A stretch of 64,000 bases of DNA. Source: an uncultured bacterium (GTDB lineage: Bacteria > Calescibacteriota > Calescibacteriia > Calescibacteriales > Calescibacteriaceae). Shown here one piece after another: positions 39,732-41,855 of the stretch. The position numbers and the translations under genes were made by a program. The stretch lies in contig CALHPK010000009.1 of the NCBI GenBank assembly GCA_938036315.1, positions 62,001 to 126,000 on the forward strand, written 5' to 3'. How positions within the stretch are numbered: the first letter of the stretch is position 1; every line of letters begins with the position of its first letter. The notes beneath the pieces are model-generated. The model was not told the DNA's origin. It did no database searches and worked only from the letters and a program-made list of their open reading frames with translations.

Positions 39732-40322
39732 ATGATATATCTTCTAAATTTAAATTCTAATTCTTCTTATCCTTTAGAGGTTAACAGATGGGCATATGAG
39801 AATTCCGAAAGAATAATCCACGTTTTCTCATTTTCTATAAGGTGTGTAAGCGTTGGTAGAACTTATCAAGATTTTCAGCCTATCAGTGCCGAAAGCTCCC
39901 CTGAAACCGAACACTTACCTGTTTTCAGAAGAATAACAGGTGGGGGCGCGGTCTTCCATTCTCCTGATAGTGATATATCCTTTGCGTTTTCATTTGAACA
40001 CGATCTAATTTCAATAAAAAAAATATTTTTGAATATAGCTAAAAAAATAAGCACATTTCTTGAAACAGAATTGAATTTAAACAACCTAAGAATTTTTGAT
40101 AATGGAGATATTTTACTAAATGATATAAAAATCTGTGGTATATCCTGTGTAAGGAAGGGGAAATTTTTTCTATTTGAGGGATGTTTTTTAATACCAAACA
40201 AGACAAAAAAAATCCCATTTAATTTTTCAAAATTATGTTTCAATTCATACGGAAAAAAGATCCGAAACTTCAAAGATTTATCAGCCAAACTCTTCAATTT
40301 TCTAAAAGAGAATTTTCAATAA
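39732..40322 (+). CDS. Short lipoate-protein-ligase-like protein (LplA/LipM fold)
   Basis: The 196-residue protein has the signature RRITGGGAVFH preceded by CVSVGRTYQDFQ, and ND-IKICGISC where the family has a conserved lysine that binds lipoyl-AMP, then GCFLIP. LplA enzymes (about 330 residues) have an extra C-terminal lid domain, absent here; LipM/LplJ-type are about 280. So this is a minimal catalytic module, which in split systems works with a separate accessory protein, not seen nearby. The gene is even more AT-rich than its neighbours. It could have drifted to another acyl or biotin substrate. Confidence 0.7.
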   Translation: MIYLLNLNSNSSYPLEVNRWAYENSERIIHVFSFSIRCVSVGRTYQDFQPISAESSPETEHLPVFRRITGGGAVFHSPDSDISFAFSFEHDLISIKKIFLNIAKKISTFLETELNLNNLRIFDNGDILLNDIKICGISCVRKGKFFLFEGCFLIPNKTKKIPFNFSKLCFNSYGKKIRNFKDLSAKLFNFLKENFQ

Positions 40323-40699
40323 GGTAACAGAAGCTGTATTCGGCAAGATAAAATAAAGAAATTTTTCAAAAATTTACTCATATCAAATATAATTCATTAA
40401 TAATAAATAATCTAAATTAAAATTTAAAACATTAAAAGTAATGAAACTTATATTCTTATATCTTTTAAATATATTCCTGAGAAGAAAAGAACTATAAAAT
40501 GAAATTTCTGGGGAAAATTTTTGAAAAATTTGACAAAAAAACGAAAAATTATTATAATTATTTTTGATGAAATTATTAAACGGATTTGAATTTTATGATT
40601 TCAAAAATTTTTATTCTTTACTTTTACTTTCATTAAATTTAACGGAGGAAAAGGTTAAAAATAAGTTGAATTTTAAAAATATTGGAAAAGGGGGAAAAC
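40323..40699. other. Very AT-rich leader/promoter region of the nicotinamidase-fusion gene
   Basis: These 377 nt hold no credible gene and are extremely poor in G and C. They contain a perfect consensus promoter (40530-40558), a weaker TTCAAA-17-TATAAT pair (40365-40393), many A-tracts and T-tracts that should bend DNA, and a Shine-Dalgarno-like GGAGG at 40644-40648 that serves no obvious start codon. Confidence 0.65.
40530..40558 (+). promoter_or_regulatory. Perfect consensus sigma-70 promoter TTGACA-17-TATAAT
   Basis: TTGACA (40530-40535), a 17-nt spacer and TATAAT (40553-40558) match the housekeeping consensus at every base. Transcription should start near 40565, giving a leader of about 135 nt to the nicotinamidase-fusion gene. 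It is the best promoter match I see in the window. Confidence 0.75.
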
Positions 40700-41752
40700 A
40701 TGCCTGAGATAGGAAAAAAAACAGCTTTAATAGTGGTAGATATACAGAAGGATTTTCTGCCTGGGGGAAATTTAGCGGTCCCAGATGGGGATAAGATAAT
40801 TCCAATCGTAAACGAGTATATACAAAAATTTGAAGAAGCAGGAGGATTGATAGTAGCTACAAGAGATTGGCATCCTGTAGATCATATCTCATTTAAGGAG
40901 AGGGGAGGGCCTTGGCCACCACACTGCATTCAAAATACCGACGGTGCAAAGTTTCATGATGATTTAAAACTCCCTGAGAATACCGTTATAATATCAAAAG
41001 CTGATGAACCTGATAAAGAAGCATACTCAGGATTCCAAGGAACAGAACTTCAAAATCTTCTCAAAGAAAAAGGAATTGACAGCGTATTTGTGTGCGGTCT
41101 TGCAACTGAATATTGTGTGAAAAATACTGTACTTGACGCTATAAAACTCGGATTCAAAACCCATATCCTCGCTGATGCTATAAAGGGAATAGATGCTAAT
41201 CCAGGGGATTCAGAAAAAGCAATAGAAGAGATGAAATCAGAGGGAGCAGAAATCGTAAATATAAAGGATGTAACGATAACACCTGGAATTATCCAAAAGA
41301 CCATAGAGTCAGTGGTTGAGTCCATAGAAGCCGCAACAGAAAAACCCCGTAAAGAGCTCCGAAGGAGTATTAAAAGAGCAAAAAAAGAGGTCGGGAAAAT
41401 TTTGAAAAGGTATGGTAAGAAAGTTGAAAAGGCTAGCAAACAAATCGGCGTGGAGCTATCAAGAACTATTCAAAAAGTAGCAGATATAATAAAAGAAACA
41501 TCAGAAAAAGTACGCGCAGGAGAGAGAGTAAAAATCAAAAAGCCTAAAGCTAAAGTAATGAGTAAAAAAAAGCCAGCAAGTATAAAGGGGAAAAAGATAA
41601 TAGCACCAAATGTGAAACAAAAGGTTAAAAAAATTTCCCAGAGGGGGAAACCCTCTGGGGGAAAAAGAAAAGGAAAAGGAGGTGGAAAACCTATGGCTAC
41701 CAAAAAAGCAGCCGCTGGAAAAAAGAAAACCGCAACCAAAAAGAAAAAGTAA
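40700..41752 (+). CDS. pncA: Nicotinamidase (PncA) fused to a long lysine-rich, histone-H1-like tail
   Basis: The first 195 residues are a complete nicotinamidase, which converts nicotinamide to nicotinate for NAD salvage: catalytic D14, K100 and C139 (GLATEYCVKNT), metal ligands D56, H58 (TRDWHP) and H75 (WPPHCIQ). Families stop near 200 residues, but this one continues to 350. Residues 197-270 look like amphipathic helices (EKPRKELRRSIKRAKKEVGK, KKVEKASKQIGVEL), and 275-350 are Lys/Gly/Ala-rich like bacterial histone-H1 proteins (KKKPASIKGKK, ATKKAAAGKKK). The tail could bind nucleic acid or another polyanion; that is inference. The ATG at 40700 follows AAAAGGGGGA. A hairpin terminator lies downstream. 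Confidence 0.9.
   Translation: MPEIGKKTALIVVDIQKDFLPGGNLAVPDGDKIIPIVNEYIQKFEEAGGLIVATRDWHPVDHISFKERGGPWPPHCIQNTDGAKFHDDLKLPENTVIISKADEPDKEAYSGFQGTELQNLLKEKGIDSVFVCGLATEYCVKNTVLDAIKLGFKTHILADAIKGIDANPGDSEKAIEEMKSEGAEIVNIKDVTITPGIIQKTIESVVESIEAATEKPRKELRRSIKRAKKEVGKILKRYGKKVEKASKQIGVELSRTIQKVADIIKETSEKVRAGERVKIKKPKAKVMSKKKPASIKGKKIIAPNVKQKVKKISQRGKPSGGKRKGKGGGKPMATKKAAAGKKKTATKKKK
41637..41659. promoter_or_regulatory. Strong 9-bp hairpin inside the pncA tail
   Basis: CCCAGAGGG (41637-41645), loop GGAAA, and CCCTCTGGG (41651-41659) form a perfect GC-rich stem inside very AT-rich coding DNA. On the minus strand the stem is followed by AAATTTTTTT, the form of an intrinsic terminator for antisense transcripts. 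On the plus strand it precedes the internal ribosome-binding site by about 17 nt. Confidence 0.6.
41677..41695 (+). promoter_or_regulatory. Internal Shine-Dalgarno plus in-frame ATG within pncA tail
   Basis: AGGAGGT (41677-41683) is followed after 9 nt by an in-frame ATG (41693-41695). Translation from here would give a 19-residue peptide starting MATKKAAAGK and ending in KKKK. The site also simply encodes Gly-Gly-Gly, so chance is possible. Confidence 0.35.
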
Positions 41753-41782: not shown

Positions 41783-41826
41783 AAGAAGGGGGATTTTCAA
41801 ATTTACTAAATAAAGTCCCCCTTCTT
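41783..41826 (+). terminator. Hairpin terminator after the pncA-fusion gene
   Basis: AAGAAGGGGGA (41783-41793) pairs perfectly with TCCCCCTTCTT (41816-41826) across a 22-nt loop, 31 nt after the pncA stop and 30 nt before rmlA. The 3' arm is pyrimidine-rich but no long T-run follows. It is one of very few hairpins in gene gaps of this window. Confidence 0.6.
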
Positions 41827-41855
41827 CTACCACAACCTGTGGGTGGATCAGATAT

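Follow-up and report, generated by a model that had tools for sequence, protein, structure and literature searches.

A nicotinamidase fused to a lysine-rich tail in the Calescamantes, with a probable nested start for a free histone H1-like peptide

Does the gene at 40700..41752 (plus strand) of the 64-kb stretch of DNA analysed here (the window) specify one protein or two? Its open reading frame, open throughout, encodes 350 amino acids that comprise a nicotinamidase and a basic tail. The sequence-only reading had described an intact PncA fused in frame to a histone H1-like tail, and this architecture is borne out in all five family genomes that we compared. These are the window genome (G000) and four others (G001–G004) of the Calescamantes, uncultured bacteria from hot springs, family of Ca. 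Calescibacterium; they represent three genera, include one close pair (G001 and G003) and are each 82–86% complete.

The nicotinamidase (PncA/isochorismatase-fold) domain spans residues 8–190 (40721..41269, plus strand), with catalytic D14/K100/C139 and metal-site D56/H58/H75. Residues 8–188 match Pfam Isochorismatase (2e-39), and the top PDB match of the ORF product is the Pyrococcus horikoshii nicotinamidase 1ilw (7e-77). AlphaFold models residues 1–190 with a pLDDT of ~97, and Foldseek aligns the model to 1ilw with a TM score of 0.98 over the target, at 0.7 Å. The isochorismatase-like fold expected of PncA is therefore found by Pfam, AlphaFold and Foldseek alike, and the sequence holds both the D-K-C triad and the D-H-H metal site. 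An alignment of 18 sequences shows no variation at D14, D56, H58, H75 or C139 and very little at K100, in agreement with the earlier assignment of all six residues. By these features the enzyme part of the fusion is an ordinary PncA, predicted to hydrolyse nicotinamide. It is the one isochorismatase-family gene of the window genome.

The PncA–tail fusion is present in 5/5 family genomes across the three genera, with tails similar in make-up, so that it recurs in four genomes besides our own. Carriers include Ca. Calescibacterium sp. SKYB43 and Ca. C. nevadense (identical sequences), relatives from which the window is assigned to the Calescamantes. A comparable tail is absent from every other PncA homologue with a readable frame (mostly from archaeal and bacterial MAGs), among which the longest extension is 42 residues (L049). 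The fusion is genuine and lineage-specific, and not a product of chance or assembly. The statement that known nicotinamidases end near residue 200 needs narrowing: the Drosophila enzyme (9u8m) has 357 amino acids with a long extension at the N terminus, and the Plasmodium nicotinamidase likewise has a long N-terminal extension (PMC5531466). At the C terminus, no extension comparable to this tail was found on any other nicotinamidase. The gene preceding pncA is lipoate/biotin-ligase-like in 5/5 genomes (39732–40322 in the window; family named by eye), and the gene following it differs among the five.

As a protein, the tail begins with basic helices (residues 197–272; 41288..41515, plus strand), which AlphaFold predicts with low confidence at 197–211 and 217–272, and continues as a disordered Lys/Gly-rich linker that is hardly conserved as protein (41516..41674, plus strand). 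Residues 191–275 carry a net charge of +10, and pLDDT falls below 50 over residues 279–345. The closest pair of genomes, G001 and G003, has a dN/dS of 0.05 for the enzyme part and ~0.09 for tail residues 191–290, so the helix is under purifying selection within the long protein. The ratio climbs to 0.44 over residues 291–320, and the last 22 residues show zero amino-acid changes. The tail has the acid-poor, disordered, Lys/Ala/Pro-rich segment of H1-like bacterial proteins, with Pro sparse; it is low-complexity sequence and matches no Pfam family above the cut-off. No significant paralogue of the tail was found elsewhere in the genome.

The end of the tail contains a second candidate start. 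In the alignment of the five proteins the sole invariant block of the tail is KGGGKxM (KGGGK with Met two residues later), whose DNA reads AAA GGA GGT GGR AAA NCN ATG in 5/5 genomes, the codons of other glycines being mixed. Here lies an internal Shine–Dalgarno (SD) sequence, AAAGGAGGTGG (41675..41685, plus strand), invariant in the five genomes and separated by 7 nt from an ATG at 41693. The frame that opens at this ATG runs to the TAA of the long ORF (41693..41752, plus strand) and encodes MATKKAAAGKKKTATKKKK, 19 amino acids of which 9 are Lys. The peptide has 22–27 residues in the relatives, and its composition is 44–50% Lys without Arg or acidic residues. A conserved SD, a start in frame and a shared stop, the marks of an in-frame nested gene, are all present.

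The 16S 3′ end GGATCACCTCCTTT was detected in 4/5 genomes, and the internal SD complements the 16S 3′ end CACCTCCTTT exactly, over AAAGGAGGTG. Its computed pairing with the anti-SD has a free energy of −16.5 or −16.6 kcal/mol in 5/5 genomes; that of the primary start, which is weaker in every genome, ranges from −10.9 to +2.6. Among 273 in-frame internal ATGs in the long ORFs of the window, none reaches −13. The pattern AAAGGAGGTG-N4-10-ATG occurs at 14–37 sites per genome, versus 0–2 for the reversed pattern that served as a control. Nearly all of the sites that we read lie just upstream of ordinary genes, such as HU and rpsH-like, FtsZ-like and acyl carrier protein-like genes (all but HU named by eye), and by this placement the pattern is a real start signal in these genomes. 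Its one occurrence in the window is the internal site. On this sequence evidence, a second, independently initiated gene for a free H1-like peptide very probably occupies the end of the tail. The earlier view of the tail solely as part of a fusion stands as to the fusion itself and gives way for the last 19 codons, which very probably have their own conserved SD and ATG.

The internal start resembles that of HU (PF00216), a single gene in each of the five genomes whose start region is nearly the same. The HU starts (L146, L147, L148, L149 and L170) have AAAGGAGGTGGRAAnnCYATG in common with the internal start, a likeness that extends past the SD (AAAGGAGGTGGGAAAACATG in G002). Over 21 bases the internal and HU sites show no difference in G001 and agree at 20/21 in G004, and in G000 both have CCT before the ATG. 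HU and internal sites match best when paired within the same genome, with 2 of 120 permutations equally good; with five genomes, two of them close, this within-genome match is suggestive only.

Separately, a 30-amino-acid ORF that stands alone, MAAKKAAGKKATAKKTSAKSTAKKSAKKKR, lies behind AAAGGAGGTAGCCGAGCC and has an SD of its own in G221, a GC-rich genome from outside this lineage (L181, minus strand, ~2860); it comes after a threonine-aldolase-like gene. This case suggests that lysine-rich mini-proteins like the nested peptide may also exist as standalone genes.

Upstream of the internal SD the coding sequence is predicted to fold into a GC-rich RNA hairpin (41634..41662, plus strand), with a core stem of 41637–41645 paired with 41651–41659 and the loop GGAAA. 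Hairpin and SD are 8–16 nt apart, in this order, in 5/5 genomes. The hairpin varies in sequence from genome to genome and is alike in shape and place, its stem arms being CCCAGAGGG/CCCTCTGGG in G000, CCCGGGGG/CCCCCGGG in G001 and G003, CCCCGAG/CTCGGGG in G002 and CCCCAGGAGA/TCTCCCGGGG in G004. No other 40-nt stretch of the ORF is as stable in any of the five genomes; equal stability is reached in only 0–9 of 1,000 synonymous resampling draws, and in 0 of 3,540 coding windows in the 64 kb of G000. By dinucleotide shuffling the hairpins of G001 and G003 are not unusual (z of −0.9 and −1.6), so for this pair the case rests on position and stem conservation: between the two genomes 0/16 stem bases have changed, compared with 3/9 loop bases and 18/60 upstream bases. 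The residues encoded at the hairpin differ (PSGGK, DISRG, GGGKS and VSSRG), so the constraint acts on the nucleic acid. The hairpin probably protects or exposes the internal start.

Several other roles for these elements can be set aside. A sense-strand terminator is ruled out, as A-rich sequence and not T follows the hairpin. Programmed frameshifting is ruled out by the order of hairpin then SD and by the closure of the other frames within ~30 codons (G000), and a lysine-codon attenuator by the downstream gene, which varies and, where recognisable, is not one of lysine biosynthesis. Nor is such a hairpin a general trait of strong starts: among 32 strong-SD sites pncA alone reaches −22.3, the next being −14.6. 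A search of Rfam returned no match to the hairpin at E up to 1.

It could be argued that there is a fusion and nothing else, in which the enzyme has a single polycationic anchor in its tail, and Lys/Gly-rich coding yields the SD-like block and the hairpin as by-products. The frame is indeed open throughout, the helix part is under purifying selection and the KGGGK codons are SD-like in a purine-rich genome; Lys/Gly-rich coding sequence is inherently purine-rich and SD-like, and KGGGKxM might be conserved as protein sequence. However, a by-product would hardly be expected to combine a perfect 11-nt SD, proper spacing and a conserved Met while the adjoining tail residues diverge, to have no counterpart among the 273 internal ATGs, or to come with a hairpin whose shape is conserved when the encoded protein is not. 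We regard this explanation as unlikely.

A sigma-70-type promoter, TTGACA-17-TATAAT (12/12), lies upstream of the gene at 40530..40558 (plus strand), and strong matches (10–12/12) are also found upstream in G001, G003 and G004, with none in G002. A second perfect TTGACA-17-TATAAT promoter stands at position 1308 of the window. The promoter of pncA had been called the best in the window; its match is perfect, and it shares first place with the one at 1308. After the stop, a G/C-rich inverted repeat (41784..41830, plus strand), seen by direct reading of the sequence, is a probable transcription terminator, and the other four genomes also have G-run/C-run repeats after the stop. The hairpin scan, with a loop limit of 8, did not return this repeat.

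On the opposite strand, a promoter at 41800–41772 could drive an antisense RNA that runs across the internal SD, ends at the hairpin and would repress synthesis of the peptide. In G000 this minus-strand promoter (TTGAAA-17-TATAAT, 11/12) is the third-best of the window, and the hairpin, followed on that strand by AAATTTTTTT, reads as a terminator (span 41800–41628); in G004, moreover, an A·C mismatch of the sense stem becomes a G·U pair in the antisense strand. Yet the other four genomes, which all have the hairpin, show an unremarkable promoter (0.25–0.85 of background windows equal it) and, for the most part, weak T tracts. We therefore consider antisense control improbable.

What the tail would bind can be narrowed by the gene content of the five genomes. 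Judged by charge alone, both tail and peptide should bind polyanions, and the sequence-only reading had listed polyphosphate among the candidates. A role as granule anchor, either on PHA in the manner of a phasin or on polyphosphate in the manner of AlgP, would fit weak phasin and apolipoprotein-type matches, which arise from amphipathic composition, and has a precedent in AlgP (PMC9239181). The phasin-type Pfam matches are far under the cut-off, however, and PhaC, PPK1 and PPK2 were found in 0/5 genomes (82–86% complete), so the tail has neither the curated profile nor the accompanying PHA synthase of a phasin. Polyphosphate is accordingly an unlikely target and the granule anchor as a whole very improbable, which leaves nucleic acid. 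The enzyme is probably held on nucleic acid by its tail; the nucleoid is the likeliest site, and RNA a possible one.

That a sequencing or assembly error joined pncA to an adjacent histone-like gene has a negligible chance of being true: five separate assemblies carry the fusion, with in-frame indels, which rules out a frameshift, and in 48 loci no tail-less pncA is followed by a separate histone-like ORF that could represent a split ancestor. Nothing was found in favour of such an error, and neither of the refuting conditions named in the sequence-only reading applies.

We thus return to the two-protein reading, which we consider reasonably probable: one strongly promoted gene may yield a polyanion-tethered nicotinamidase and, by internal initiation, a free mini-histone. 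Fusion, SD, ATG and hairpin are all conserved, and both coding parts are under selection. One transcript from the gene's own consensus promoter would direct the synthesis of two proteins. Ribosomes starting at 40700 would make a nicotinamidase whose positive helical and disordered tail tethers it to nucleic acid; those that we infer to load at the internal SD and ATG (41675–41695) would give a lysine-rich, H1-like mini-protein of 19–27 residues as a free product, in larger amount than the long tethered enzyme. Where processing of the mRNA leaves a stable 3′ fragment, the hairpin would mark or protect its 5′ end; alternatively, it would leave the SD free. This role, like nucleic-acid binding, is less certain than translation of the peptide. 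In a thermophile, the free peptide, as a small polycation, would work alongside HU to coat or compact nucleic acid; the fused copy would hold nicotinamide removal, and perhaps sirtuin de-inhibition, near nucleic acid.

All five genomes have two SIR2 homologues and one NAPRTase (the next step after nicotinamidase), and in Escherichia coli deletion of nicotinamidase resembles deletion of CobB (PMC5734772). A link of the fused enzyme to sirtuins, to which we see no tie here, is therefore possible. A more ambitious version of the two-protein reading is doubtful: the nested mini-histone start would be co-controlled with HU through their common initiation region, the hairpin would belong to a new intragenic class, and a single transcript would set the packing of the nucleoid together with NAD salvage and the activity of sirtuins.

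The open-access literature that we searched yielded no precedent for PncA, H1-like tail and nested gene together. Nor did it yield a metabolic gene that harbours an H1-like mini-protein, or a nested in-frame start with a conserved hairpin ahead of it. If the two-protein reading is correct, a single bacterial gene would encode an enzyme as well as a free peptide of chromatin-like character, its coding sequence would contain an RNA element, and conserved internal ribosome-binding sites would be a route to microproteins that annotation overlooks. It would also be a bacterial case of nicotinamide removal sited on nucleic acid, with two sirtuins alongside.

Among known systems, the P. horikoshii PncA (1ilw/1im5) is alike in fold and in catalytic and metal residues (0.7 Å and 64% identity in the Foldseek alignment); it ends near residue 180, without basic tail or nested gene. 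AlgP (PMC9239181), mycobacterial HupB (PMC5676037) and chlamydial Hc2 (PMC2848022) also have Lys/Ala-rich disordered tails, which bind DNA. Those tails are described on DNA-binding or uncharacterised domains, whereas here the tail is on a metabolic enzyme, and the three abstracts mention no nested start. HU of the same genomes has a near-identical initiation region and likely the same cellular compartment, but its protein has no homology to the peptide and its start has no obvious upstream hairpin. The closest parallels in gene organization are Cas11b within cas8b (PMC11899642) and the two-polypeptide endolysins (PMC9430671), in which the C-terminal part is likewise made on its own from an internal start. 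In both, the short product joins the same complex as a subunit or binding domain, whereas here it would be a 2-kDa polycation, and the internal SD of pncA, unlike those nested genes, is preceded by a conserved hairpin.
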